NCBI GenBank assembly: GCA_947626285.1
Contig: CANQRR010000017.1
Location: forward strand, 1 to 59,349
Origin: an uncultured Lachnospiraceae bacterium
GTDB taxonomy: Bacteria > Bacillota > Clostridia > Lachnospirales > Lachnospiraceae
Length of the DNA stretch: 59,349 nt
Direction of reading: 5' to 3'
The notes under the pieces are model-generated. The model was not told where the DNA came from. It saw only the letters and a program-made list of their open reading frames with translations, and ran no database searches. Shown here piece by piece: positions 221 to 29,605 of the stretch (position 1 is the first letter of the stretch; each line of letters opens with the position of its first letter). The position numbers and the translations under genes are program-made.

Positions 221-2305
221 TTACTTGCTTTCATTCGTTTCCAGCAGATTCGTCATGCTCCGCAGGCTGACGCCCAGCGTAGAAAGGTTGTGCAGCATGG
301 CGGACGTCGCCGGAGCCAGCATACCCAGTGCTCCCAACGCGATCAGGGAGCCATTGAATCCGATGACAAAACGGTAATTGGAGCGGATGCGGCCGGTCAG
401 GCGATCAGCAATCCGCCGCAGACTGACCAGCTCAAACAGGCTGTCCGCGGCAATGGTGATGTCCGCGATCTCCCTGGCAATCGCCGCGCCGTCGCTGATG
501 GCAATGCCCACATCGGCCCTGGACAGCGCCGGGGAATCATTGATGCCGTCTCCGATCATGATGACCGTATGTCCTTTTGCCCGCTCTGCCTCCACAAAAT
601 CAGCCTTATCCGCGGGCAGGATCTCCGCCTGATATTCGTCTGCACCGATCTCAGCAGCAATCGCGGCAGCGGTACGCTCACTGTCTCCGGTGAGCATGAC
701 CACCCGACGGATACCCAGATCGCGCAGGCTGCGGATCACCGAACCGGCCTCCTGCCGCAGGGGATCCGAGATGCAGACCACAGCGGACAGTACGCCGCTG
801 ATCGCCAGATACAGGTGGGAATACCGATCCGGCAGAGCGTCAAAACGCGCCTTGTCGCCATCCGGGATCATGCAGTGCTCATCCTCAAAGACAAAATGCG
901 CGCTGCCGATGACGACCCGCCTGCCATTTACCTCGCTGGCAATGCCGTGAGCGACGATGTACTCTACCTCCGAGTGCATTTCCTCATGGGACAGTCCCTG
1001 TTCCCGCGCGGCCTGAACAACGGCGTTCGCCATGGAATGCGGAAAATGTTCTTCCAGACAGGCCGCCAGCCGGAGCATATCCGTCCGGTCATGCCCGCCG
1101 AACGGTACGACTTCCGCGACCACCGGGCAGGCGTGCGTCAGCGTGCCGGTCTTGTCAAAGACAATCGTGTCCGCCAGGGCAACCTTCTCCAGATACCTGC
1201 CGCCCTTCACCGTCACATGGAAACCGCCCGCCTCCCGCATCGCGGAAAGAACCGCCAGAGGCATGGAAAGCTTCAGGGCGCAGGAGAAATCCACCATGAG
1301 TACGGACAGAGCCCTGGAAACATTTCTGGTCAATAAGTATGTGAGCAGGCTGCCCGCCAGAGTGTAAGGCACCAGCCGGTCCGCCAGATTTGCCGCACGG
1401 CTCTCCGCCGTGGATTTTAAGGACTCCGACTGTTCGATCATGGCTACGATCTTATCGTAACGGCTGCTTCCCGACTGACCCGCGGCCTGAAGGACACACT
1501 CGCCCTCCTCCACCACCGTCCCCGCGTAGACTGTCATGCCCGCGCGCTTGGGAACCGGTATGGACTCCCCGGTGAGAGACGACTGATTGACCATGACCTC
1601 CCCCTCGGTGATCACACCGTCAAGCGGGATCAGACCTCCCAACCGGACGCGCAGCTGATCGCCCTCCCGGATCTGTGACAACGGCACGAGAACATCACCC
1701 TGCGGCGTCTTAAGCCAGACCCGGTCAACATTCAGAGCCATGCACTGCGCCAGATCGCTGACAGACTTTTTGCGGGTCCACTCCTCCAGAAGCTCACCCA
1801 GTCCGAGAAGGAAGCGCACCGAAGACGCGGTGGCAAAATCGCCCCGGATCAGCGAAATCCCGATTGAAAGGCCGTCCAGCACCTCCACATACATCTGTCC
1901 CCGCAAAATGCATCGTATACCGCGGTATAAGTGCGGGATGGATTTCCAGACAGTGTAGGCAGCCCGCAGAGGCATTGGAAAGAAAAGCGTGGCCGCGGCT
2001 TTTGCGGCAACCATGCCCACCAGCTTCTCTTCATAGGTTCGGTTCAGCGTCCGGCTGCTGTTGAGAGGCGGGCACAGCTCCTCCATTTCATAAGAAAAAC
2101 GTCTGAACGCCTTTAAAACGTCCGCCTCACAACCCTGATATTCCACAATGGCACAGCGGGTCCGCTCATGAACGACAGCCCTTGTGACATCCGGAAGCCT
2201 TTTAAGATAGCACTCCAGCAGATTCGCCTGCTCCAGTGACATCCGGGGCTGCGCCATCTGAACTCGGATGCGGCCCCGGCTGCGATGCTTCACGGTTACG
2301 TTCAT
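221..2305 (-). CDS. P1B-like metal-translocating P-type ATPase with altered CPx motif
   Basis: This 694-residue protein is a membrane pump driven by ATP. Visible motifs, in order, are an N-terminal HMA-like fold (about residues 1-75) without its CxxC metal site, TGES (245-248, actuator), SCALKLSMP (341-349) where P1B pumps carry CPC/CPx, DKTGT with the phosphorylated Asp at 384, an HP-like FPHS (421-424) and GDGINDSPAL in the hinge. The core is intact, so it should be active. The metal ligand triad is reduced to Ser-Cys-Ala, so specificity is unclear. It follows DUF6110 after 5 bases and appears to end an operon that also contains a 26-residue peptide. A DtxR-type regulator gene lies just upstream, which suggests Mn or Fe handling, but that is inference. 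Heavy-metal export is the alternative. Confidence 0.9.
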   Translation of the reverse strand: MNVTVKHRSRGRIRVQMAQPRMSLEQANLLECYLKRLPDVTRAVVHERTRCAIVEYQGCEADVLKAFRRFSYEMEELCPPLNSSRTLNRTYEEKLVGMVAAKAAATLFFPMPLRAAYTVWKSIPHLYRGIRCILRGQMYVEVLDGLSIGISLIRGDFATASSVRFLLGLGELLEEWTRKKSVSDLAQCMALNVDRVWLKTPQGDVLVPLSQIREGDQLRVRLGGLIPLDGVITEGEVMVNQSSLTGESIPVPKRAGMTVYAGTVVEEGECVLQAAGQSGSSRYDKIVAMIEQSESLKSTAESRAANLADRLVPYTLAGSLLTYLLTRNVSRALSVLMVDFSCALKLSMPLAVLSAMREAGGFHVTVKGGRYLEKVALADTIVFDKTGTLTHACPVVAEVVPFGGHDRTDMLRLAACLEEHFPHSMANAVVQAAREQGLSHEEMHSEVEYIVAHGIASEVNGRRVVIGSAHFVFEDEHCMIPDGDKARFDALPDRYSHLYLAISGVLSAVVCISDPLRQEAGSVIRSLRDLGIRRVVMLTGDSERTAAAIAAEIGADEYQAEILPADKADFVEAERAKGHTVIMIGDGINDSPALSRADVGIAISDGAAIAREIADITIAADSLFELVSLRRIADRLTGRIRSNYRFVIGFNGSLIALGALGMLAPATSAMLHNLSTLGVSLRSMTNLLETNESK

Positions 2306-4626: not shown

Positions 4627-5144
4627 GCAAGATAGGTCAGAAGATCGTACTCCTTCAAAGTCAGCTCCGCCTTCTCCCCGTCGAGCGAAACGCTGCGGCC
4701 GGCCATATCGATCTCAAGGCCGTCAAAGACCAGTTTCTCCGTTTTGTTTATACCCGCATCGGCAGCATTCACGGCGGCATTCTTTGCCTGTCTCTTCAGG
4801 ATCACATTTACTCTCGCCATCAATTCCTTCGGCGAAAACGGTTTGGTGACATAATCGTCCACGCCCACCTCAAAGCCAAACAGCTTGTCGTACTCCGTTC
4901 CCCGCGCAGACAGCATCAAAACAGGAATGTCCTTTTCCGAGCGTATCTTTTTTACCGCCGTGTAACCGTCCATGTCCTGCATCATCACATCCATGATGAT
5001 CATATCGAAATCATATTTTCTGCACAGCTCGACAGCCTCGCTGCCGTCGCAGGCCTCCGCCGTCTCATAGCCCTCGCGCCGCGCATAGCGCCCGATCAGA
5101 CGGACAATCTCTTCTTCATCGTCCACGATAAGTATTTTTGGCAT
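4509..5144 (-). pseudogene. OmpR-family response regulator truncated by fusion to kinase sequence
   Basis: The receiver domain is complete: MPKILIVDDEEE with acidic Asp8 and Asp9, phosphoacceptor Asp52 in MIIMDVMMQDMDG, and the Lys of VTKPFSPKEL. The DNA-binding winged helix starts near residue 134 and stops after LTLKEYDLLTYLAR, about residue 174, before the recognition helix. The remaining 37 or so residues (RQTGSARPLTARIRS onward) are the kinase gene read out of frame. The protein can therefore be phosphorylated but should not bind DNA normally. A promoter and RBS precede it. The natural form of this family is about 225-230 residues with VanR/YycF-like architecture. Confidence 0.85.
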
Positions 5145-17765: not shown

Positions 17766-18107
17766 TTATTGAATATTCTCTGTCAGAGCTACAAGCTGCT
17801 CCCGTAACTTTGTAAAATCTTCTGTCACCGTCTGATATACATCTCCTATCTTCAAGGTCTGATATTTATGTGCTGCTATATCTCTGAGACCTGCGGCCGC
17901 TTTCCACGGAATCTCTTTATGCTCCTGCCTCGTTTCATCAGTGATGTTCTTAACCAACTCACCTATATTGATCACAGTCATGCAAACTGCCCTTTTTAAC
18001 ATCTCATCGGAATTGAATTCTTCCAGATTTTTATCCTGTATCATGTCGGCTGCTATATCTATTTCCTGAATGATCTTTTTTATAATCTGTTCATCCCTGT
18101 GATTCAT
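17766..18107 (-). CDS. HepT-like HEPN ribonuclease toxin
   Basis: A 113-residue all-alpha protein (DUF86/HepT). The start at 18107, MNHRDEQIIKKIIQEID, has a GGTGG site. CMTVINIGELVKNITDE is the family's helix 3, and the nuclease motif R-x4-H is present as RDIAAHKYQ. Toxins of this class cleave RNA and are silenced when the MntA partner adds AMP to a tyrosine near the motif; Tyr after HK fits that site. It overlaps the mntA-like gene by 17 bases, the normal arrangement for type VII systems. Confidence 0.88.
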   Translation of the reverse strand: MNHRDEQIIKKIIQEIDIAADMIQDKNLEEFNSDEMLKRAVCMTVINIGELVKNITDETRQEHKEIPWKAAAGLRDIAAHKYQTLKIGDVYQTVTEDFTKLREQLVALTENIQ

Positions 18108-18384
18108 ATAGAGGCACCACCTTTCCCAGCTCAATCAGAGAACCGTCCTCAATTGGCCCATGTACAACGTCGACTTCTGCATTCAGTATCTCTTCCAGAC
18201 GATACTTAAGCGCATTGAGAGTCAGAAGGGATACCGAAGCCGTAATGAACTCTACCAGCAAGTCAACATCACTCTGCTCGTGATTCGTTCCGTTTGCATA
18301 AGAACCAAACAGCTCAACCCTTTTTATCGGAAACTCCGTAACTGCTACACGAACTCCCTGTTTTATCTTTCTGATGTCAAGCAT
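18091..18384 (-). CDS. MntA-like nucleotidyltransferase antitoxin
   Basis: A 97-residue minimal nucleotidyltransferase. RVELFGSYANGTNHEQSDVDLLVEF has the GS-x10-DxD catalytic pattern (Ser28, Asp39, Asp41), so it looks enzymatically active. It would AMPylate and neutralise the HEPN protein next door. I chose the ATG at 18384 because of the very strong AAAGGAGGG site upstream of it; six more codons in frame precede it without a site. The C-terminal part (ILNAEVDVVHGP) supplies the third acidic residue. Confidence 0.9.
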   Translation of the reverse strand: MLDIRKIKQGVRVAVTEFPIKRVELFGSYANGTNHEQSDVDLLVEFITASVSLLTLNALKYRLEEILNAEVDVVHGPIEDGSLIELGKVVPLYESQG

Positions 18385-18618
18385 AGGTATCCCTCCTTTC
18401 ATACTTGTTATCTGAACCGTGACGACTTCACCTGTAGCTTTTGATCATTCCAGCTTCGCTTATGCTCCCGCTCTGGTCCAATACTTTCGCGAACATTATA
18501 TCACTCTCGCTTTTCTCATACAACAGCTTTTTCGATCGTGTGTCAATGTATAGACAAATCTTTTCAGATATGTTATTGTTTAAAAACTGATTAAACCAAG
18601 ATATGAAAAGGTGATCTC

Positions 18619-19558: not shown

Positions 19559-20914
19559 TTGAAAACAGAAATCAGCTCTGGGAAGAAGCTGTTGTTCAGC
19601 GGCAGAGACCTGCGGGGATTGATCGTTCCCCTGATCATTGAGCAGTTTCTCGCGATCTTTGTCGGGCTTGCGGATTCGGTCATGGTGGCGTCTGTGGGAG
19701 AGGCGGCGGTCTCCGCGGTTTCCCTGATCGATACGATCATGATCCTGCTGATCAACATCTTCACGGCTCTCGCGACAGGAGGCGCGATCGTGGCGGGGCA
19801 GGCGCTCGGCCGGAGGCACGAGGAGGCCGGCTGCGAGGCGCTGGAGCAGACGCTTCTGTTTTCGACGGCGTTCTCCCTGCTTATCATGGCGCTGGTGTAT
19901 GCGGGAAAATGGTTTATCCTGCATGTCGTGTTCGGAAAGATCGAACCGGACGTCATGGCGAACTGCAACACCTACCTGATGATCGTGACAGCCTCGATCC
20001 CGTTTCTGGCTGTCTACAACTGCGGCGCGGCCGCGTTCCGGGCGACCGGTGACTCGCGCACGCCAATGTTCCTGTCCCTTGTCATGAACGGGATGAATAT
20101 CATCGGAAACGGAATCCTCCTGTACGGACTCGGATTCGGCGTGGAGGGCGCGGCGATCCCGACGCTTGTATCCCGCGCTTTCGCTGGCGTCTGGATGCTG
20201 TGTCTGATCTGCGATAAAAAGAGGACGCTGCATGTGCGGACGCTGTCCGGGTTGCGGCTGAATACGCATGTGCTTCGGAAGATCCTCCATATAGGGATTC
20301 CCTACGGACTGGAAAACAGCATGTTCCAGCTCGGCAAGATTCTCGTGCTGAGCGTTGTCTCCGGCTTCGGCACGGTTTCGATCGCAGCGAACGCGGTCAG
20401 CAACAGTGTCTGCAATTTCGCGGTGCTCGGCGGCATGTCGATGGGATACGCGCTGTCCTCGGTGGCAGCGCAGTGCGTCGGAGCGGGGGATTATGAGCAG
20501 GCTAGGTACTACACACGCAAGCTGCTTTTGTATTCCTATGTCTCGATGGTCGTGATGAATCTTCTGATCCTTGTGATGATGCCGACAGCGATACGCGTCT
20601 ACAATCTGTCGCCGGAGACCGGGGCGATGGCAAGGCGGATCATCCTGTATCACGTGGTGATGTCCACACTGATCTGGCCTGCCTCATTTACCCTGCCGAA
20701 TGTGCTCCGCGCGGCAAACGACGTCGGTTTCTGCATGTGGGTATCAATCCTTTCCATGTGGACCTTCCGCGTCGGCTTCAGCTATGTGCTTGGGCAGTTC
20801 GCGGGGATGGGCGTGCTCGGCGTCTGGGTGGCGATGACGATCGACTGGGCGGTGCGCGTCGTGTTTTTCGTCTGGCGATACCGGGGGACGAAATGGCAGC
20901 TGAAGGAAGTCTAA
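19559..20914 (+). CDS. MATE family efflux transporter, TTG start
   Basis: A 451-residue, twelve-helix exporter. GRDLRGLIVPLIIEQFLAIF and GLADSVMVASVGEAAVSAVSL match the MATE N-lobe; the second lobe starts near residue 245 (KILHIGIPYGLENSMFQ), with GTVSIAANAVSN as its family signature. It should extrude a cationic drug or metabolite against Na+ or H+. The start codon is TTG at 19559, nine bases after GGGAGGAAGG. No other ATG near has a ribosome site. Gene order places it right after the metal permease, with an 82-base gap. Confidence 0.93.
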   Translation: MKTEISSGKKLLFSGRDLRGLIVPLIIEQFLAIFVGLADSVMVASVGEAAVSAVSLIDTIMILLINIFTALATGGAIVAGQALGRRHEEAGCEALEQTLLFSTAFSLLIMALVYAGKWFILHVVFGKIEPDVMANCNTYLMIVTASIPFLAVYNCGAAAFRATGDSRTPMFLSLVMNGMNIIGNGILLYGLGFGVEGAAIPTLVSRAFAGVWMLCLICDKKRTLHVRTLSGLRLNTHVLRKILHIGIPYGLENSMFQLGKILVLSVVSGFGTVSIAANAVSNSVCNFAVLGGMSMGYALSSVAAQCVGAGDYEQARYYTRKLLLYSYVSMVVMNLLILVMMPTAIRVYNLSPETGAMARRIILYHVVMSTLIWPASFTLPNVLRAANDVGFCMWVSILSMWTFRVGFSYVLGQFAGMGVLGVWVAMTIDWAVRVVFFVWRYRGTKWQLKEV

Positions 20915-21054: not shown

Positions 21055-22476
21055 ATGTTAGTAAACACAAAGGCACGAGTTGGCGTTTTCTCGATCGCGC
21101 TCGGAGCGTATCTGCCGCAGTTCCCGTCTCTGGTACCGGAATTTGAGAGCCAGTATGAGGCGTTCAAGAAGACGCTTCCGGACACGGTTGAGATCATCGA
21201 CGGCGGCATGGTGACGACAAAAGAGCTGTCTCAGGCAGCCGGGGACAAGTTCCGCGCGGCGGACGTCGACCTCGTGATCATGCAGCTTCTGACCTATGCG
21301 ACATCCTACAATATGCTCCCGGCAGTGCGCGACCTCGATGTTCCGGTCGTTCTGGTGAACGTGCAGAAGCTCAAAGCGCCGGACTACGCGAACACGGACA
21401 CGCCGAAGTGGCTCGGCGAGCTCTACGCCTGCGGCGCCGTCGGCGAGATGGTCGCGGACCTTGAGCGCGCGGGCAAGCGCCACGCGGTCATCACCGGCGT
21501 CGTCGAGGGCGGCGATCCGTACGTGCAGCATGAGATCGAGGACTGGTGCAAGGCGGCGCAGGTGCGCAGAAGATTCCGCGACACGAACCTCGCGCAGATT
21601 GGCAGACCGTATCCGGGCATGATGGATCTCTACATCGACGAGACGAACCTGTACCACAGAATGTGGCTCTACACGAAGCAGTTCGACTGGGAGAAGATGT
21701 GGGCGATCGCCGACGACATCACCGACGAGGACGCGATCCGCGCGAAAGCGCAGGACATCCTCGACACCTTTGATATCGAGGGCGGCGGCACCATCGAGAA
21801 GGTCTGGGATATGGCGAAATACGTGGTGGCGTTTGAGCAGTGGGTGAAGGACGAGCAGATCGGCTTCGTCGCCTCCCACTATGACGGCTTCGCGCAGGGC
21901 GTCGCGGGCAAACTCGACAGCATGCTGATCCCGGCGTTCTCCATGCTGATCAAGCAGGGCACTGCATGCGCTGTTGAGGGCGACATCAAGGTCGCGATGG
22001 CGATGAGCATCCTGAAGACGATCTCCGGGACCGGCCAGCTCTCCGAGATGTACTCCATCGACTTCAACGAAGACATCTGCATCATCGGACACTCAGGCTC
22101 GGGCGACGCGGACATTTCCCAGGCGAAAAAGCCGACCATGAAGATCGTTCCGGTCTTCCACGGCAAGACGGGCGGCGGCTACCTGACCCAGTTCTATCCG
22201 CCGACCGGTCCGGTCACCTATCTCGGCATCACACAGGACAAGGACGGCCACTTCAAGTTCGTCGTCGCCGAGGGCGTCAACGAGGAAGGTCCGATCTTCA
22301 TGTTCGGCGATACCAACATGCGGACACGCTTCACCTGCGGCGCGAGAGAGTTCTGCAACAAGTGGAGCGAAGCCGGCCCGACGCATCACATGGCGGCCGC
22401 GGTCGGCAGACACATCGACACGATCCTGAAAGTCGCGAAGATCTTCAACGTGCCGGTGGATATTGTGACGAGATAA
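21055..22476 (+). CDS. L-fucose/L-arabinose isomerase family protein
   Basis: A 473-residue protein of the FucI/AraA superfamily. It opens ARVGVFSIALGAYLPQFPSL and has DLVIMQLLTYATSYNMLP, where ketol isomerases show the NTFSPA-like region, and NEDICIIGHSGSGDADI, the metal-ligand loop. Expected metal ligands would be two Glu and two His; His-rich points exist (VFHGKTGGG, GPTHHMAAAVGRH), but the first Glu is not obvious. Substrate unknown; genes for arabinose or fucose use are not adjacent. An AGGAGG site is present. A clear terminator follows at 22487-22521. Confidence 0.85.
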   Translation: MLVNTKARVGVFSIALGAYLPQFPSLVPEFESQYEAFKKTLPDTVEIIDGGMVTTKELSQAAGDKFRAADVDLVIMQLLTYATSYNMLPAVRDLDVPVVLVNVQKLKAPDYANTDTPKWLGELYACGAVGEMVADLERAGKRHAVITGVVEGGDPYVQHEIEDWCKAAQVRRRFRDTNLAQIGRPYPGMMDLYIDETNLYHRMWLYTKQFDWEKMWAIADDITDEDAIRAKAQDILDTFDIEGGGTIEKVWDMAKYVVAFEQWVKDEQIGFVASHYDGFAQGVAGKLDSMLIPAFSMLIKQGTACAVEGDIKVAMAMSILKTISGTGQLSEMYSIDFNEDICIIGHSGSGDADISQAKKPTMKIVPVFHGKTGGGYLTQFYPPTGPVTYLGITQDKDGHFKFVVAEGVNEEGPIFMFGDTNMRTRFTCGAREFCNKWSEAGPTHHMAAAVGRHIDTILKVAKIFNVPVDIVTR

Positions 22477-22542: not shown

Positions 22543-24669
22543 ATGAACGTACCGGTCATCATCCAGATGCATACTGGAGAAAATGGAGCGGCCGCTCTGT
22601 CTATGATACTGGCGTACTACCGAAAATATCTGCCGCTGTCGGCTGTTCGTGAGAAGTGCCTGACTTCCCGGAACGGTTCCACGCCCGCGCAGCTGCTTCA
22701 GGCCGCCGAAGGGTTCGGGCTGAAGGGATCTGTCCAGAAGGCAAAACTGTCCGAGCTGAAAAAGATACCGCTTCCCGCCATTGTGAGCTGGAACAAAAAG
22801 TATTATGTGGTGGTCTGCGCATTCCGGGGCGGCAATGTCTATGTCAACGACCCTGCCGGCGGCTCCTACGCCGTGACGGAGGAGCGGTTCGAGCGCTCTT
22901 ATTCCGGCTCCGTGATCGCTCTGACGCCCGGTCCTGACTTTCAGCCGGAAGGACGCCGAGAGCCGATATGGGCCCTGCTGTGGCGTCGGCTGCACGCAGG
23001 CAGCCGCTCCCTTCTCGTGATCTTTCTGCTGCACGCGCTCGGCACGGCGGCGCATCTGGTCCTGCTGGAGCTGAGTCGGCGCATGTTGGATCAGGTCATG
23101 GGTGGGGAGCATCAGGAACTCTATCTTCCCCTGCTGATCGGCATGGGCGCGGCGCTGCTTGTCGGCACTGGCCTGTCCCTTCTTGAAACCATACATACCT
23201 ACCGGATCGGCCGCAGGATGGCGGCGGAATCCGGCGGCAGGCTTTTCCGGCAGATGCTGGACCTTCCCATGAGCTTTTATGAGCAGCACTTCGCGGGCGA
23301 CATCCTGGACCGCATGGAAAAGAATTCCCGCCTGGACTATTCCCTGCTGCGCACGATCCTTCCCACGATCATCGACACGGCAAGCCTCGTCTTCTATCTC
23401 GCCATGCTGCTGTTCTACGACCCGCTGATGGCGTTTCTCTGCCTTGCGGTAGAAGTGGTCTACATCCTCATGAGCATGTGGCTCCAGAGGCGGATCGCCA
23501 TCCAGTCGCGCAGTCTGAGCACCAGCACAAGCGCCGTAAACACCTCCCTGCTCAACGGTTTCAACACCATCGAGACGATCAAGTCCATCGGTTCGGAAAA
23601 AGCGTTTTTCTCCCTCTGGAGTTCTTCGCAGACCAACATGCAGGAAAAGAGCGCGCGGATGGACCGCATAAAAGCGCTGTCCGGATTTCTGGGAAGCAGC
23701 CACAATGTGATCTCCTCCGCCTGCCTTCTGTTCGTAGGCGCCATTCTGATCATCCGGGGCCAGTTTACCATGGGTATGCTGGCTACGTTCCAGTCGGTCC
23801 TCGGCAACGTGCGGAGAAATCTCAGCTCCCTGGTATCCACCTCCAACGATCTGACGAGCCGCCGCACCGATATCGAGCGCGTGGAGGACATGCTGGGACA
23901 AGAGCCGGAACCGGCAGTTCCCCTGCAGGATGAGGCCCGGGCACAGAAGCTCTCCGGCGACATAGAGATCGATCATGTCACTTTCCGCTACAATCCGGGA
24001 GACCGGCCGGCAGTGGACGATCTGTCCCTGCACATAAAACCTGGGCAGATGGTAGCGCTGGTCGGCTCGACGGGCTGCGGCAAGAGCACGCTGATGAAGC
24101 TCATCGCCGGCCTCTGCCGTGCGAATGACGGATGCATTCATTACGACGGCATGCTCCGGGAGGAAATTCCGGACGTGACCTTCCACTCTTCGCTCGCATG
24201 CGTAGATCAGGAGATCACGGTGTTCAACGACACGCTCTCCAACAATCTGAAAATGTGGGACGGGACGATCGAGAATTTCGAGATGATCCTCGCGGCGCGC
24301 GACGCACAGATCCACGACCGCATCATCTCGGCCCCGGGCGGCTATGACGCGACAGTCTATGAGAACGGACGCAACTTTTCCGGCGGAGAACTGCAGCGTC
24401 TGGAGCTTGCCCGCGCCCTAAGCCAGGATCCCACGGTCCTGCTGCTGGACGAGTTCACTTCCGCCCTGGACGCCTTGACGGAAGAGAAGGTCTTCCGGGC
24501 GATCCGCGACAAAGGAACGACCTGTATCCTGGCGGCGCACCGCTTTTCCACCGTGGTGGAATGCGACTGGATCGTCGTTATGGAAAAAGGCCGCATCGCG
24601 GAGCAGGGCACACACGAGGAACTGTATCACGCCAACGGCTTGTACCGCCGTCTGGTGGATCTGCAATAG
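22543..24669 (+). CDS. NHLP/NHLM-type ABC exporter with inactive C39 domain
   Basis: A 708-residue ABC half-transporter. Residues 1-125 have the C39 peptidase fold, but the catalytic Cys of the usual ECGAA is Asn14 (GENGAA) and the catalytic His is Tyr87 (WNKKYYVV). Only the Asp of NDPAGG (103) is kept. It can bind, but not cut, a leader. Residues about 150-430 are the TM domain, beginning LLVIFLLHALGTAAHLVLL. The nucleotide-binding domain has GSTGCGKSTL (about 506), FSGGELQRLELA and VLLLDEFTSALD, so ATPase function is intact. The start at 22543 has AGGAGGGAG; 20 codons upstream in frame lie in the terminator. It is followed after 13 bases by a second ABC gene. No precursor or maturase is seen. 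Confidence 0.88.
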   Translation: MNVPVIIQMHTGENGAAALSMILAYYRKYLPLSAVREKCLTSRNGSTPAQLLQAAEGFGLKGSVQKAKLSELKKIPLPAIVSWNKKYYVVVCAFRGGNVYVNDPAGGSYAVTEERFERSYSGSVIALTPGPDFQPEGRREPIWALLWRRLHAGSRSLLVIFLLHALGTAAHLVLLELSRRMLDQVMGGEHQELYLPLLIGMGAALLVGTGLSLLETIHTYRIGRRMAAESGGRLFRQMLDLPMSFYEQHFAGDILDRMEKNSRLDYSLLRTILPTIIDTASLVFYLAMLLFYDPLMAFLCLAVEVVYILMSMWLQRRIAIQSRSLSTSTSAVNTSLLNGFNTIETIKSIGSEKAFFSLWSSSQTNMQEKSARMDRIKALSGFLGSSHNVISSACLLFVGAILIIRGQFTMGMLATFQSVLGNVRRNLSSLVSTSNDLTSRRTDIERVEDMLGQEPEPAVPLQDEARAQKLSGDIEIDHVTFRYNPGDRPAVDDLSLHIKPGQMVALVGSTGCGKSTLMKLIAGLCRANDGCIHYDGMLREEIPDVTFHSSLACVDQEITVFNDTLSNNLKMWDGTIENFEMILAARDAQIHDRIISAPGGYDATVYENGRNFSGGELQRLELARALSQDPTVLLLDEFTSALDALTEEKVFRAIRDKGTTCILAAHRFSTVVECDWIVVMEKGRIAEQGTHEELYHANGLYRRLVDLQ

Positions 24670-24682
24670 AGGTGGTGATCCC

Positions 24683-26854
24683 ATGAGTAGTATATTTACT
24701 GATCTTATCCTGGAACGTGACCGTATCGATACGCGCCTGATGGAGGAGGCAAACACCTCCCTGCGCGACAACATTCCTTCCTCCGCCGGCGCGGACCGGA
24801 TCGTGCAGACGGAAGCGGCGCTGCGCTGCATCCTGGATCGCTTCGACGTTACGCCCGAGCCCGTCCGCCACTGCGACAGCATCGGCGAGCTGATGGACTG
24901 TGTGCTGGACCCCCTGTGCATCATGTACGAGCCCTGCGATCTGCGGGAAGCGGACTGGAAGCGGCGGACCGTCCACATGCTCGGATTTCTGGAGGACGGG
25001 ACCGCGGTAGCCCTTTTCCCGACGGTGGGTGGCTATCGCTACGTATGCCCGTCGACCGGAAGAAAAGGCCGCGTCACAAAAAGCACGGTTCTCGATCCCA
25101 CCGCCTATGTGATCTACCGTCCTCTGCCGGAGGGCAGACTTTCCCTGCCACGCTTTTTTCGGCTTCTGTTTGCCCTGCTCTCTCCCGCAGACTACGTGCC
25201 CGTCGCCGCTGCGATCGGCGTCATCACGCTGCTCGGACTCGTGGCTCCCTCGCTCAACCGCCAGGTGCTTGACCAGCTGGTTCCTCTGGGATCTGCAGCT
25301 TTTCCGAAGCTGATCTCGGCGGCTGTCCTGTTTGTCTCCGTGGGCGTGCTGCGCGCGGCGCTCACCGTCGCCAAAACGCTCATGCTCAACACCGTCCGGC
25401 GGAATGTCAGCATCCAGGTGCAGGCCGCCGTCGTGTCGCGCATCCTGTTCCTACCGGACGCCTATTTCAAGAATCTGTCCGCCGGGAAACTGTCCAAGCG
25501 CATCCAGAACAGCCGCACGCTCGCGGAAAGGCTCACAAGCATGGTCATGGATACCTCAGTCACAGCCGTCTTTTCCCTGGTCTATATCCCCCAGATGGCG
25601 CGCTTCGCCCCGTCTCTATATATCCCGGCGCTGCTGATCCTGATCGCGCAGCTTGCCCTGAGCATCTTCGCGTCAGCCATATATGCGAAAAACACGCTGG
25701 CGAGCAACGAACTGTTAATGGAGGAGAACGGCTTCGTCTACGCGGCGGTACGCGGCATCCAGAAACTGAAGACTTCCGGCGCCGTCAAACGCGTCTACGC
25801 GAAGTGGGCGGAGCTCTACCGACGGAGGCTGGTTTACACTCTTGACCCGCCAGGTATCGTGAAGCTGCGAAGCCAGCTCATCGCTTTCATCTCATCCTTC
25901 GGCACGATCCTGATCCTGTCCGTGGCGATCCCGTCAGGCGTCACCCGGCCGGACTACATCGCCTTCACCGCCTCCTACGGGCTGATCGTCACAGCCGCCA
26001 CGGAGCTGATGACTGTGATCGACAACCTCTTCTCCCTGCAGTCGCTGCTGAACAATCTGAAGCCGCTCTTCGAGGCGGAGCCGGAACAGACGCGCAGCCA
26101 GGAATATGTAAAGGAACTGTCCGGGCGTGTGCAGCTGGAGAACATTCATTTCGCCTACGAGGGCGCCAGGACAGAATGTCTGAAGGGAGTCTCTCTTTCC
26201 ATCCGGAAGGGAGAAAAGGTCGCCATCGTAGGGGAGAGCGGCTGCGGCAAGAGCACTTTGCTTCGCATCCTCATGGGGATGGAAGCACCGTCCGCAGGCT
26301 GCGTCTACTATGACGGGCGTCCGCTCCCCTCGCTCAACAAGCGCTCCCTGCGCCGCCACATCGGCTCCGTGTTCCAGTTCAGTCAGGTCATGCCCGGATC
26401 CATCCAGGCAAACATCGCATTCGGCGCGCCGGACATCACGGAAGAGGAAATATGGGATGCGGCCGGGAAGGCGCAGATTGAGGAGCTGATCCGCTCCCTG
26501 CCGCTCGGGATGGATACTGAGATTTCCGAGTCCCGCGGCGGCGGCTTCTCCGGAGGACAAAAGCAGTGCATCCTTCTGGCGCGGGCCTTCGCCGGAAAAC
26601 CCTCCCTGCTCGTCCTGGATGAGGCCACCTCAGCCCTGGACAATGTGACGCAGAAGAAGGTCCTGGACGCGATCACAGCGCTTCGGGCCACGGTCATCAT
26701 GGTGGCGCACCGGCTCTCCACCGTCAAGGACTGCGACCGCATCATCATGCTCTCTGACGGAGTGATCGCGGAACAGGGGACTTACAAAGAATTGATAGAG
26801 AAGGACGGGCTTTTCGCCGAGCTCGTGCGCAAGCAGCTCCAGGCGGAGGCATAA
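24683..26854 (+). CDS. NHLP/NHLM-type ABC exporter, second subunit
   Basis: A 723-residue ABC half-transporter. Residues 1-160 are a soluble domain (FTDLILERDRIDTRLMEEA, later VGGYRYVCPSTGRKGRV), like the regulatory N-terminal region in NHLM ATP-binding subunits. The membrane part starts near LSPADYVPVAAAIGVITLLG. Walker A GESGCGKSTL (about 518), the signature FSGGQKQCILLA and Walker B LLVLDEATSALD are intact. It should dimerise with the preceding gene product. An AGAGGTGG site precedes the ATG. Typical family members are longer (about 900 residues), so this is a short version. Confidence 0.87.
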   Translation: MSSIFTDLILERDRIDTRLMEEANTSLRDNIPSSAGADRIVQTEAALRCILDRFDVTPEPVRHCDSIGELMDCVLDPLCIMYEPCDLREADWKRRTVHMLGFLEDGTAVALFPTVGGYRYVCPSTGRKGRVTKSTVLDPTAYVIYRPLPEGRLSLPRFFRLLFALLSPADYVPVAAAIGVITLLGLVAPSLNRQVLDQLVPLGSAAFPKLISAAVLFVSVGVLRAALTVAKTLMLNTVRRNVSIQVQAAVVSRILFLPDAYFKNLSAGKLSKRIQNSRTLAERLTSMVMDTSVTAVFSLVYIPQMARFAPSLYIPALLILIAQLALSIFASAIYAKNTLASNELLMEENGFVYAAVRGIQKLKTSGAVKRVYAKWAELYRRRLVYTLDPPGIVKLRSQLIAFISSFGTILILSVAIPSGVTRPDYIAFTASYGLIVTAATELMTVIDNLFSLQSLLNNLKPLFEAEPEQTRSQEYVKELSGRVQLENIHFAYEGARTECLKGVSLSIRKGEKVAIVGESGCGKSTLLRILMGMEAPSAGCVYYDGRPLPSLNKRSLRRHIGSVFQFSQVMPGSIQANIAFGAPDITEEEIWDAAGKAQIEELIRSLPLGMDTEISESRGGGFSGGQKQCILLARAFAGKPSLLVLDEATSALDNVTQKKVLDAITALRATVIMVAHRLSTVKDCDRIIMLSDGVIAEQGTYKELIEKDGLFAELVRKQLQAEA

Positions 26855-26885
26855 GTGCATCGGTACGCAAAGCGCTTACTACCTT

Positions 26886-26963
26886 ACGCGGGTCTGTAAT
26901 CGAGTAGGGCGGATTTTCCCTACTCGCTGCGCGACCCGCGTGCTGCGACAGCAGCAAATTTTT
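26886..26963 (+). terminator. Compound hairpin region ending the ABC operon
   Basis: ACGCGGGTC (26886-26894) pairs with GACCCGCGT (26933-26941), and inside it CGAGTAGGG (26901-26909) pairs with CCCTACTCG (26918-26926). A third hairpin TGCTGC/GCAGCA (26941-26956) is followed by A's and five T (26959-26963), the actual terminator. The two stems ahead of it are stronger than a terminator needs. Confidence 0.65.
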
Positions 26964-26983
26964 CCTCTTGCGGGTCTGCGCAT

Positions 26984-27015
26984 AAAAACACTCCGGATGC
27001 CCGGCACCCGGAGTG
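26984..27015 (-). terminator. Terminator of the reverse transcriptase transcript
   Basis: On the minus strand CACTCCGG (27008-27015) and CCGGAGTG (26989-26996) flank an 11-base loop, and TTTTT follows (26984-26988). It lies 147 bases after the reverse transcriptase stop codon, leaving a long 3' tail. Confidence 0.8.
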
Positions 27016-27022
27016 CTATAAA

Positions 27023-27161
27023 AAGGAGGGAAGACATTCATTCATTGAGACTTTTTCATGGCGTCACAGACCGGCAGTCGCCTGCAAGACCTTTTTACGC
27101 CGGACCATTCCGCCCTCTGCAGGCGCGCTGTGCGCACCCTCCTTCTTACCTGATGAATGAT
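27023..27161 (-). ncRNA. Structured 3' tail of the reverse transcriptase transcript (candidate ncRNA)
   Basis: No coding frame with a ribosome site fits here on either strand. Inverted repeats are dense: AAGGAGGG (27023-27030) with CCCTCCTT (27137-27144), nested CGCCTGCA (27079-27086) with TGCAGGCG (27118-27125), and ATTCATT-type repeats near 27036 that can pair with ATGAATGA near 27152, crossing the first stem. A terminator follows. This could be a template or guide RNA for the reverse transcriptase, in the way retron and DGR RNAs sit beside theirs, or only a stabilising 3' UTR. RNA status is inference. Confidence 0.4.
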
Positions 27162-28388
27162 TCAGAACAACGTGCTCCAGTCCGTCTCAAACCGGCGGTA
27201 GTACACGTTGACGAGGCTTCGATAACCCAATTCATGCATTTTCTCGAAACGGACGCGATAACGGGCGTCCGATTTTTTTCCGCTGCCCACATAGCGGATG
27301 TTGAACTGAACCGCGGCGTCGATCTTTTTCAGCCCATCCGTCTTCGACAGCAGCGGCAGGATCCAGCGGCACCAGTTCAGCTCGTGCCGGTTGGCGACGC
27401 CCCCGAAAAACAACCGCCTGGCGTAAAAGATCATCCGGCGCATCGCCTCTTCATCGTCGAGTTCACCCCGCTTCTTGCGGCGCATGATCTGACTGGCGCG
27501 AAGGCGCAGCTTCCACCTGATCTTATCCACCGAGCTGTCTGCGATGTCCACGGCGCGCCCGGTCAGCTTCATGCCCAGCACTTCCACGGTAGATCCGGGA
27601 GGCAGGATCATACTCTTTTCCTCATGGAGCGAAAGCTTCTTGCGGGCCATCACCTCCATGATGTAACACTTGTATTCCTCTATCTGCTCCTCTGTATTCG
27701 CGTAGAGTACGATGTCGTCCGCGTAACGGCCGTACAGGACGTGCTTCTTCTGAAAATGCCAGTCCATCTCTGAGAGATAGAGGTTTTCAAAAAAGCTGGT
27801 GAGCGGCATGCCGGACATGACCGCAGGGCCATCATGAAAAATTCCTCCCGACGGATGTCGGTAGGTACGCCAGGTAAGGAGCCAACGGAAAAACGCCAGA
27901 ATCTCCGGATCGCCCACGAACAGCGCTTCCAGCTGCTCCAGAAGCAGCGCTCCGTCTATGCTGTCGCCATAGCTTTTCACGTCGGTCTTCAGGATATATT
28001 TGTTCTTCAGTCCCGGCGTAGACTTGAGCCGCATGATCAGATCCGCCACGCGGCGGCCGCTCCGGAACGAGTAAAGATTTTTGGCAAAGGCAGAATCATA
28101 TTTCCGGAGGGCAAAGGTCATCAGCTGCGTCAGCATCAGATCTTCTTTCTTCAGGCTGTACACCAGCCGTTTTTTGCCGCTGTGGCTCTTGCGCCGGGCG
28201 AACTGCATGGGAGGAGCGAAATAGTAATCTCCCGCTTTCAGACGCAGGATACCGACTGTGCACTGATCGCTCAGAAGGTAGCTTCTCAGGGCGTCCACCT
28301 CTTCCGGCTTGCAGGAAATGGATTCGTCCTTATATGCAAGAAATCTCTCCCGGACCTCCATGTCCAGCATCTCATCAAAAACGCCCAT
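27162..28388 (-). CDS. Stand-alone reverse transcriptase
   Basis: A 408-residue protein with a complete RT palm. Residues about 80-110 (SGKKRLVYSLKKEDLMLTQL) are motif 1; LYSFRSGR fits motif 2; ILKTDVKSYGDSID carries the first catalytic Asp; MSGMPLTSFFENLYLSEMD is motif 4; YGRYADDIVLY holds the YADD box; ILPPGSTVEVLGMKL follows. About 130 further residues form a basic helical thumb. There is no maturase X, no HNH or integrase, so it is not a group II intron protein, and no Avd or variable repeat is nearby to suggest a DGR. I chose the ATG at 28388, preceded by GGGGAG; two upstream in-frame ATGs lack sites. It converges on two ABC exporter genes. Its RNA partner is unknown. Confidence 0.9.
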   Translation of the reverse strand: MGVFDEMLDMEVRERFLAYKDESISCKPEEVDALRSYLLSDQCTVGILRLKAGDYYFAPPMQFARRKSHSGKKRLVYSLKKEDLMLTQLMTFALRKYDSAFAKNLYSFRSGRRVADLIMRLKSTPGLKNKYILKTDVKSYGDSIDGALLLEQLEALFVGDPEILAFFRWLLTWRTYRHPSGGIFHDGPAVMSGMPLTSFFENLYLSEMDWHFQKKHVLYGRYADDIVLYANTEEQIEEYKCYIMEVMARKKLSLHEEKSMILPPGSTVEVLGMKLTGRAVDIADSSVDKIRWKLRLRASQIMRRKKRGELDDEEAMRRMIFYARRLFFGGVANRHELNWCRWILPLLSKTDGLKKIDAAVQFNIRYVGSGKKSDARYRVRFEKMHELGYRSLVNVYYRRFETDWSTLF

Positions 28389-28483
28389 GTCCGATCTCCC
28401 CATCTCTGCGCCACGCCCCGGCAATACCGGACAGCAAAGCGATTCTGTATTCTATATAGTCTGCCCTTTTATTCAGGTCTTAT

Positions 28484-29605
28484 TCAAATCTTCTTCAGCT
28501 CGTACTGCCTCGTGCCGAGCCCGACCTTCTCCGCCTGCTCCAGCGTGGCCTTCCACTCGATGTTCGGATTCGAGTCCTTGAAGTGGTCGTGATGGCACTC
28601 CCATCCCTCAGAGGCCAGATTGTCCCCGAGCTGGCTGTTCGGCAGCGGCTGCGCGTTCAGGCATGCGTCCGCGCACGCCTGGTCGAGCGCCACCGGGTCG
28701 AAGCTCGCGAACATTCCGATGTCCGGAAGGATCGGGGCGTCGTTCTCCTCGTGGCAGTCGCAGTTCGGGCTGATGTCCTGCACCAGGGAAATGTGGAAGC
28801 AGGGGCGCCCATGACAGACCGCCTGCGCATACTCCGCCATCTTCCGGTCGAGCATCTCATACGCACAGTCGTTCGGATTTCCGATCGCGTCAAACGTGCA
28901 GGCGCCGATGCAGCGGCCGCAGCCCTTGCACTTGTCATAATCGATCACAGCCTTCTTCTCCGGATAGGAGATCGCGTCGCTTCCGCACTCACGCGCACAG
29001 CGGCGGCAGCCGCGGCAGAGCTCCTCGTCGATCGCCGGCTTTCCGTCCTTGTGCTGCTCCATCTTCCCGGCGCGGCTCCCGCAGCCCATGCCGATGTTCT
29101 TGAGCGCGCCGCCGAAACCGGTCGCCTCATGACCCTTGAAATGAGACAGGCTGATGAACACGTCCGCGTCCATGATCGCGCGGCCGATCTTCGCCGTCTT
29201 GATGTATTCGCCATTCACTACCGGCACTTCCACGTCGTCGGTGCCGCGCAGCCCGTCCGCGATGATGATCTGGCAGCCCGTCGTCACCGTGTTGAAGCCG
29301 TTCAGATTCGCGCAGTCCAGATGCTCCAGCGCATTCTTGCGGCTGCCCGGATACAGCGTGTTGCAGTCCGTCAGAAACGGCTTGCCGCCCTGCTCCTTAC
29401 ACAGATCCGCGACCACCTTCGCGTAATTCGGACGCAGGAACGCCAGGTTCCCAAGCTCCCCAAAGTGCATCTTGATCGCGACAAACTTGCCTTCCATATC
29501 GATATCTTTGATCCCCGCCGCAATGCAGAGCTTCTTCAGCTTATCCAGCTGCCCGTTTCCGATGGAGCAGCGAAAATCCGTGAAATAGACCGTAGATTTA
29601 TCCAT
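28484..29605 (-). CDS. DUF362 domain protein with 2x[4Fe-4S] ferredoxin
   Basis: A 373-residue protein. The DUF362 part has FAIKMHFGELGNLAFLRPNY-type sequence (residues about 43-62), then SLSHFKGHEATGFGGALKNIG, the family core. Residues about 190-245 hold two ferredoxin clusters: CRGCRRCARECG and CKGCGRCIGACTFDA. It is cytoplasmic. Such proteins are common in anaerobes; electron transfer is likely and the substrate unknown. Its promoter at 29641-29668 overlaps the region just after valS. An AGGTAGGAG site is present. Confidence 0.92.
   Translation of the reverse strand: MDKSTVYFTDFRCSIGNGQLDKLKKLCIAAGIKDIDMEGKFVAIKMHFGELGNLAFLRPNYAKVVADLCKEQGGKPFLTDCNTLYPGSRKNALEHLDCANLNGFNTVTTGCQIIIADGLRGTDDVEVPVVNGEYIKTAKIGRAIMDADVFISLSHFKGHEATGFGGALKNIGMGCGSRAGKMEQHKDGKPAIDEELCRGCRRCARECGSDAISYPEKKAVIDYDKCKGCGRCIGACTFDAIGNPNDCAYEMLDRKMAEYAQAVCHGRPCFHISLVQDISPNCDCHEENDAPILPDIGMFASFDPVALDQACADACLNAQPLPNSQLGDNLASEGWECHHDHFKDSNPNIEWKATLEQAEKVGLGTRQYELKKI

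Follow-up and report, generated by a model that had tools for sequence, protein, structure and literature searches.

What does a stand-alone reverse transcriptase (RT) do when its transcript ends in a tail full of inverted repeats and its gene converges on two peptide-type exporter genes? The question is raised by a locus in the window analysed here, the whole of a 59,349-nucleotide stretch (contig CANQRR010000017.1, assembly GCA_947626285.1) from an uncultured Lachnospiraceae bacterium. A sequence-only reading had taken the tail for the RT's dedicated RNA and had proposed, flagged as inference, a link between RT and exporters. Comparison with related genomes shows, at the level of sequence, what appears to be a three-part system: a UG26 RT, a putatively dedicated, pseudoknotted RNA akin to RT-5, and an ABC pair that seems to replace a COG2852-like gene, which was not found here. 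The features of the locus are collected in Table 1.

Table 1. Coordinates of the RT, its predicted partner RNA and the exporter genes in the window.
Feature	Position	Strand	Basis or remark
ABC1, NHLP-like exporter (C39-like domain, permease, ATPase)	22543..24669	+	TIGR03796; Pfam C39, ABC_membrane, ABC_tran
Asn codon where the C39 catalytic Cys is expected (GEN instead of ECG)	22582..22584	+	Alignment place of the catalytic Cys
ABC2, second NHLP-like subunit, permease and ATPase	24683..26854	+	Best NCBIfam match TIGR03797
End of the RT-RNA transcript: terminator hairpin (26989-27015) with T run	26984..27015	-	Sequence; hairpin conserved in 7 sequences
Predicted structured partner RNA, RT-5-like, directly 3' of the RT, same strand	27015..27154	-	Model R1, Rfam RT-5
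Outer stem P1, 3' arm	27018..27030	-	Pairs with 27137-27149
Pseudoknot helix B, 3' side (GCCGG, CUGU, CGCC)	27060..27076	-	Pairs with 27098-27114
Pseudoknot helix A, 3' arm UUGCAGGCG	27079..27087	-	Pairs with 27117-27125
Pseudoknot helix B, 5' side (GGCG, AUGG, CCGGC)	27098..27114	-	Pairs with 27060-27076
Pseudoknot helix A, 5' arm CGCCUGCAG	27117..27125	-	Pairs with 27079-27087
Outer stem P1, 5' arm	27137..27149	-	13 pairs with 27018-27030; kept in 6 relatives
UG26-group RT, 408 aa, YADD catalytic motif	27162..28388	-	PADLOC RT_UG26, Pfam RVT_1

The RT open reading frame had been recognised correctly from sequence, including its YADD motif. PADLOC assigns it to UG26: the RT_UG26 model gives 355 bits (E 1.2e-106) over residues 1-399 of 408, the second-best model, a generic RT, gives 97 bits (E 3e-28), and Pfam RVT_1 matches with an E of 3.3e-17. 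Three exporter-linked kin of this RT are likewise assigned to UG26. The YxDD motif is intact, reading YADD in the window RT and also in L013 and L128, and YSDD in most relatives. UG26 would fall in class 2, a placement made by profile neighbours only (UG4, UG17, UG27 and Drt9), and a cis-encoded structured RNA, one feature of class 2 defence-associated RTs, is found with the window RT. The retron cut-off is missed, with 49 bits for the St85 retron model against the 235 needed. A search for the TR/VR pair of a DGR between positions 20000 and 36000 found no direct repeat of at least 40 bases (exact seed of 14); such a search may overlook a pair that is short or has diverged strongly. An AlphaFold model of the RT, made with 7 sequences, had a mean pLDDT of 41.6 and was set aside.

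Several observations concern the surroundings of the RT gene and its kin. A promoter-like block (TTGACT, TATAAT) precedes the RT in six relatives and is absent from the window at 28388-28484, so that expression of the RT may be weak in this bacterium; a DUF362 gene ends some 95 bases away from where the RT begins. For the region of window 28484-29605, the relatives L033, L035, L037 and L038 have another gene directly 5' of the RT, presumably encoding a secreted nuclease, and L036 holds an apparent remnant of it. The window's genome carries two further RT genes (G000:C16:4347-4976 and G000:C88:2905-3648) with 26-27% identity to the window RT. In genome G193, a single open frame of 1271 aa (L045:5156-8971, plus strand) comprises both a B12 radical SAM protein resembling TIGR03960 (225 bits, under the cut-off of 462) and, in frame with it, the UG26 RT, either as a natural fusion or as an assembly effect. 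Elsewhere in the window, two small overlapping genes on the minus strand (17766-18402) read to us like a nucleotidyltransferase/HEPN toxin-antitoxin pair, and the plus-strand gene at 21055-22476 encodes an isomerase-like protein with weak sulfoquinovose/arabinose isomerase matches, far under their cut-offs.

Concerning the tail, the 147 bases counted between the RT stop codon and the terminator hairpin proved exact; the hairpin itself (26989-27015) is absent from the terminator pattern scan and visible in the sequence and the consensus fold, with TTTTT after it on the minus strand. The inverted repeats listed from sequence fared unequally. The pair AAGGAGGG/CCCTCCTT, 106 bases apart, is present; CGCCTGCA/TGCAGGCG is present too and is the one that truly crosses another, CCGGC/GCCGG; and the supposed crossing pair ATTCATT/ATGAATGA can be located in the window, but the relatives do not preserve its 5' arm and the pairing is therefore probably due to chance. 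By folding energy alone the tail is only mildly special (z -1.83, with 9 of 200 shuffles folding equally well or better). The tail lies in the same place in six relatives with RT identities of 90-92% (loci L033-L038, the same records as genomes G330, G334-G337 and G339). Mean pairwise identity is 94.0% in the first 98 RNA columns, which run from P1 through helix B and were delimited after the alignment had been inspected, as compared with 88.7% for the whole RNA; the RT gene shows 90.1%, and its third codon positions 79.7%. A covariance model trained on other loci, R1, matches the tail with 29.9 bits (E 2.9e-4) as its sole match in the window, and the tail is also the sole match when the bacterium's own 3.7 Mb genome is searched (E 0.018). 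Being kept in six relatives and matched by a model trained elsewhere, the tail is more than chance and is, on this comparative evidence, a structured RNA. Its predicted fold comprises an outer stem, a hairpin P2 and an H-type pseudoknot A/B, like the RNAs at other UG26 loci, whose stem P3 is unpaired in the window copy. Inspection by eye for a template region or a telomerase-like repeat in the RNA settled on none.

At distant UG26 loci (RT identity about 28-37%) a similar RNA precedes the RT and shares its strand; in L010 it stands 5' of the companion gene described below. Alignment A3 comprises 25 of these distant RNAs, excised by eye, with the window clade excluded and with one exporter-type row (L005); 86.6% of its cells pair versus 72.6% when shuffled, and double-change cells number 149 versus 54.4. 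Pairing reaches 97.3% in helix A and 94.0% and 96.4% in the two parts of helix B, P1 (75.5%) and P3 (59.7%) being the weaker stems; since helices A and B cross, the predicted fold is a pseudoknot. R1 was built from A3 with helix B included and helix A left out. It matches 27 of the 29 distant loci, namely the 25 training rows plus L008 and L023, with no match at L004 and L012 (contig end), and 13 of 16 further UG26 loci outside the training; among the three misses, L119 and L129 have no match in wider loci either, and the RNA of L069 lies outside the stretch that was scanned. It also finds the RNA in 7 of 7 window-clade members, none of them used in training, while 11 genomes with no UG26 match yielded one weak hit (E 0.67). 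The 15 held-out RNAs show pairing in 92.2% of cells versus 73.4% when shuffled, and pairs changed on both sides number 29 versus 18.1. Helix B is 93.3-98.3% paired in this set, and helix A, which is not in R1 and whose columns were located on the held-out alignment itself, is 98.9% paired, with 4 of 6 pairs double-changed in at least one row. The check that had been suggested for the tail, whether its downstream repeats co-vary and are retained with the RT, was thus run without refuting the idea: covariation is seen in the structure, and the RNA accompanies this group of RTs, which supports the tail as the RT's dedicated RNA. A promoter scan 5' of 39 RNAs, 20 of which reach 9 of 12 matches (mean 8.5 versus 7.7 when shuffled), gives a signal that is only suggestive.

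The idea that the RNA forms a new family was dropped, as ordinary UG26 loci match Rfam RT-5. The RT-5 cut-off is passed at 30 of the 32 ordinary UG26 loci scanned (the misses being L032 and L128), so in its ordinary form the partner RNA is RT-5 and no new family. None of the exporter-type loci scanned (L033-L038, L045, L046, whose short form is L005, and L170) passes that cut-off. The window RNA aligns along the full model and scores 31.2 bits (E 3e-4 when 401 bases were searched), below the gathering score of 45.7 bits, which is why a gathering-threshold scan of the window gave nothing.

The small gene that stands before the RNA at ordinary loci corresponds to PADLOC's RTasCOG2852, to which 5 of 10 members have a direct match, the best at E 4.5e-62, other members being tied to the direct matches by a self-built profile. 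COG2852 is, we assume, an endonuclease family; the family profile searched against the PDB gave one match, at E 0.66, which is not credible. Such a gene is present in 14 of 18 ordinary wide UG26 loci (weakly in L055 and L062), 11 of these 14 having themselves supplied the profile, and was not found in L047, L053, L056 and L063. It was found in none of the exporter loci scanned (the window, L130-L132, L134, L045, L046 and L170), and the exporter, in turn, in 0 of the 18 ordinary wide loci. In this sample the two companions exclude each other, and the conserved RT-RNA pair has one of two companions, or neither in four wide loci. With one companion missing where another is present, the exchange points, in our judgement, to the companion as the acting part, which makes the exporter a concrete and testable effector candidate.

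The exporter genes had been described as NHLP-type. Their best NCBIfam matches are indeed NHLP models, but both stay under the curated cut-offs, ABC1 with 707 bits against 853 for TIGR03796 and ABC2 with 513 bits against 709 for TIGR03797. In all 6 RT-linked ABC1 copies, three of which come from the window clade, the catalytic Cys of the C39 domain is replaced by Asn and the His by Tyr; both residues are kept in 19 of 19 unlinked ABC1, some of them near-copies. The small open reading frames common to the four exporter loci sit inside large genes where checked, an approach that a lone precursor would escape.

Sampling at family level turned up kin of the window's UG26 RT in 36 of 397 genomes (E 1e-60); at class level they were found in 16 of 391 (E 1e-50) and at phylum level in 2 of 299. 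The samples overlap, and each count includes the window's own genome. No kin were found among phages, plasmids and viral contigs. The distant RTs nearest to it, in G193 (L045) and G293 (L046), have NHLP-like ABC genes that run divergently from the RT. A tree of 51 RTs (L036, L038 and L129 excluded, with four of the 36 UG26 genomes, G109, G182, G346 and G377, also outside it, as are the second copies of G039 and G175) shows an exporter-linked subclade of 8 rows with support of 100/99. The tree put G352 in this subclade before its neighbour genes were read, and there RT, ABC1 and ABC2 stand in one row, with 22 bases between RT and ABC1. The subclade thus adjoins an NHLP-like ABC1/ABC2 pair in all four lineages found, in three gene orders, one of which is common to G193 and G293, which cluster together; four lineages are few. 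The seven window-clade genomes amount to one syntenic inheritance, the ABC2 orthologue and the RT occurring in the same 7 of 47 genomes of the genus. In four next relatives (G338, G323, G322 and G327) blastn matched the stretch retrieved next to DUF362 neither to these genes nor to valS, so that it does not represent a clean empty site.

The exporters themselves also set the linked copies apart. With the window ABC1 as sole query against 20 UG26 genomes, the three copies linked to an RT, in G352, G193 and G293, match best (632-668 bits, 43-44% identity), and other matches reach at most 540 bits. A profile of the four linked ABC1s, built from the very four that it finds and with two candidates scored per genome, detected no fifth genome with a linked-type ABC1 among the 397 at E 1e-210 or better. 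In midpoint-rooted trees the linked copies fall on one side of a 100/100 branch, both for ABC1 (6 rows versus 17) and for ABC2 (6 rows versus 9, in a tree that carries a long-branch warning). The trees conflict on G352, which the RT tree pairs with the window clade on a long branch and the ABC trees with G193 and G293. The exporter link, which had been offered as an inference, is supported by the linked clade, the dead C39 domain and the three gene orders, and the ABC pair recurs within a subclade of the RT, as the corresponding check had asked.

Regarding the RNA at the exporter loci, its position varies. The window copy is flanked by ABC2 and the RT and shares the strand of the latter. That of G293 is placed between ABC1 and the RT (L046:7444-7577, 24.7 bits, itself an R1 training row). 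In G193, too, an RNA between ABC1 and the RT was spotted by eye in L045, with arms ending at 4912 and 5030, and gave no R1 match either by default or with filters off; the whole-genome R1 search returned one weak match on another contig for G193 and none for G293. In G352 one RNA follows closely after ABC2, on the opposite strand, and a near-identical second one lies farther along, the two scoring 15.7 and 18.3 bits (E 0.16 and 0.046) with filters off. These copies (L170:642-783 and 2073-2213, plus strand) have a 390-codon open frame between them, and G352 also has a 55-aa open frame just 5' of the RT (about 5980-6150 of L170, RT forward) with no counterpart at the other exporter loci. The window and G352 copies both allow helices A and B to be drawn, though the letters differ between them, and no counterpart of helix A was recognised in the G293 or G193 RNA; the exporter-type RNAs are divergent.

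We lean towards reading the locus as an exporter-linked UG26 variant, in which an RT-RNA complex has a non-proteolytic exporter as membrane partner, probably for phage defence. The RT would bind the partner RNA and copy a short part of it into DNA in the manner of the class 2 UG enzymes (DRT2, DRT3a, DRT9, DRT10); this step is proposed because those studied so far use cis-encoded RNA templates, as described in the available text of two papers (PMC13174585, PMC12632851). The RT-RNA-DNA complex would restrain or switch the paired exporter, which, presumably incapable of cutting leader peptides, would serve as membrane effector by analogy with the SLATT proteins of DRT10. Phage defence would be the most likely role of the system, as a family-level expectation. 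A variation in which the complex yields a DNA, or a DNA-encoded product, that the exporter transports or is gated by seems to us distinctly improbable; in that case a non-proteolytic ABC exporter would be the business end and cDNA would control secretion or membrane breach, a coupling that to our knowledge is known in no RT system.

The same genes could be read as an ordinary UG26/RT-5 unit with the exporter pair as a frequent neighbour travelling in the same variable region. NHLP-like exporters are common, occurring unlinked in G079, G041, G193, G293, G352 and members of the genus, and the window clade counts as a single inheritance event. We nevertheless regard mere neighbourhood as rather unlikely, given linked exporters that cluster apart from unlinked ones with their peptidase dead and adjoin UG26 in three different gene orders, the lack of a fifth genome with a linked-type exporter among 397, and the usual companion gene not being found at exporter loci. 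A retron would have the RNA as its msr-msd and multicopy DNA controlling an exporter effector, and toxic effectors held by an RT-RNA-DNA complex are typical of retrons according to the available text of PMC12548924. The outer stem resembles a1/a2 and the RT is weakly retron-like (49 bits with St85), but with that score far under 235, UG26 at 355 bits, and a pseudoknotted RNA akin to RT-5, a retron is very improbable. That the tail is a mere 3' untranslated element for stability or regulation of the RT messenger would fit its place on the RT transcript right before the terminator, with no separate promoter found by scan. At ordinary loci, however, the same kind of RNA stands 5' of either the RT or the companion gene, and in G352 two copies lie past ABC2 on the opposite strand; the RNA thus follows the system rather than the messenger, and we find the untranslated element scarcely credible.

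Concerning previous work, Mestre et al. (2022) reportedly treated the UG groups and Weinberg et al. (2017) the RT RNAs. Among the papers that could be searched we found none that links UG26 to RT-5 RNA or studies either, and no mention of RF03026, the RT-5 RNA or motif, RTasCOG2852 or COG2852 with a reverse transcriptase. No account of the exporter-linked form was found, in a search that most subscription papers and supplements lay beyond, so it may be described elsewhere. The UG26 RT group, the RT-5 kin of the RNA and the COG2852 companion are already catalogued. The one paper found to name UG26 RTs, PMC10504277, lists them among cold-seep viruses in its available part. What the comparison adds is that UG26 and RT-5, both catalogue entries, are now joined, that the RNA gains a pseudoknot supported by covariation, and that a subtype is found which is missing one companion gene and carries another, an ABC exporter whose peptidase is dead.

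Among known systems, the NHLP bacteriocin export system (TIGR03796/TIGR03797) shares the ABC1/ABC2 architecture and is the best profile match, whereas the window pair is below its cut-offs, has lost the C39 Cys and His, and comes with no shared precursor peptide that could be found. The window RNA resembles the RT-5 RNA (RF03026) in aligning along the full model and differs in its sub-gathering score and unpaired P3; the RNA of DRT2 is likewise pseudoknotted, as given in the available text of PMC12039810. DRT3 (UG3 and UG8) has its RNA encoded 3' of the RT genes, as in the window, but employs two RTs, and the portion of PMC13174585 available mentions no exporter. DRT10, as presented in the available text of PMC12632851, also has three parts, a class 2 UG RT (UG17), a short RNA of 137 nt and a SLATT partner protein; there the partner is a SLATT membrane protein, whereas here it would be an ABC exporter pair, with an RT of another group, in a system known from sequence. 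Closest in RT group is the UG26 RT with RTasCOG2852, a PADLOC 'DRT' candidate, which also has the same kind of RNA beside the RT; it differs in carrying a COG2852-like gene where the window has the ABC pair, and in having its RNA upstream of the RT, where that of the window lies downstream.
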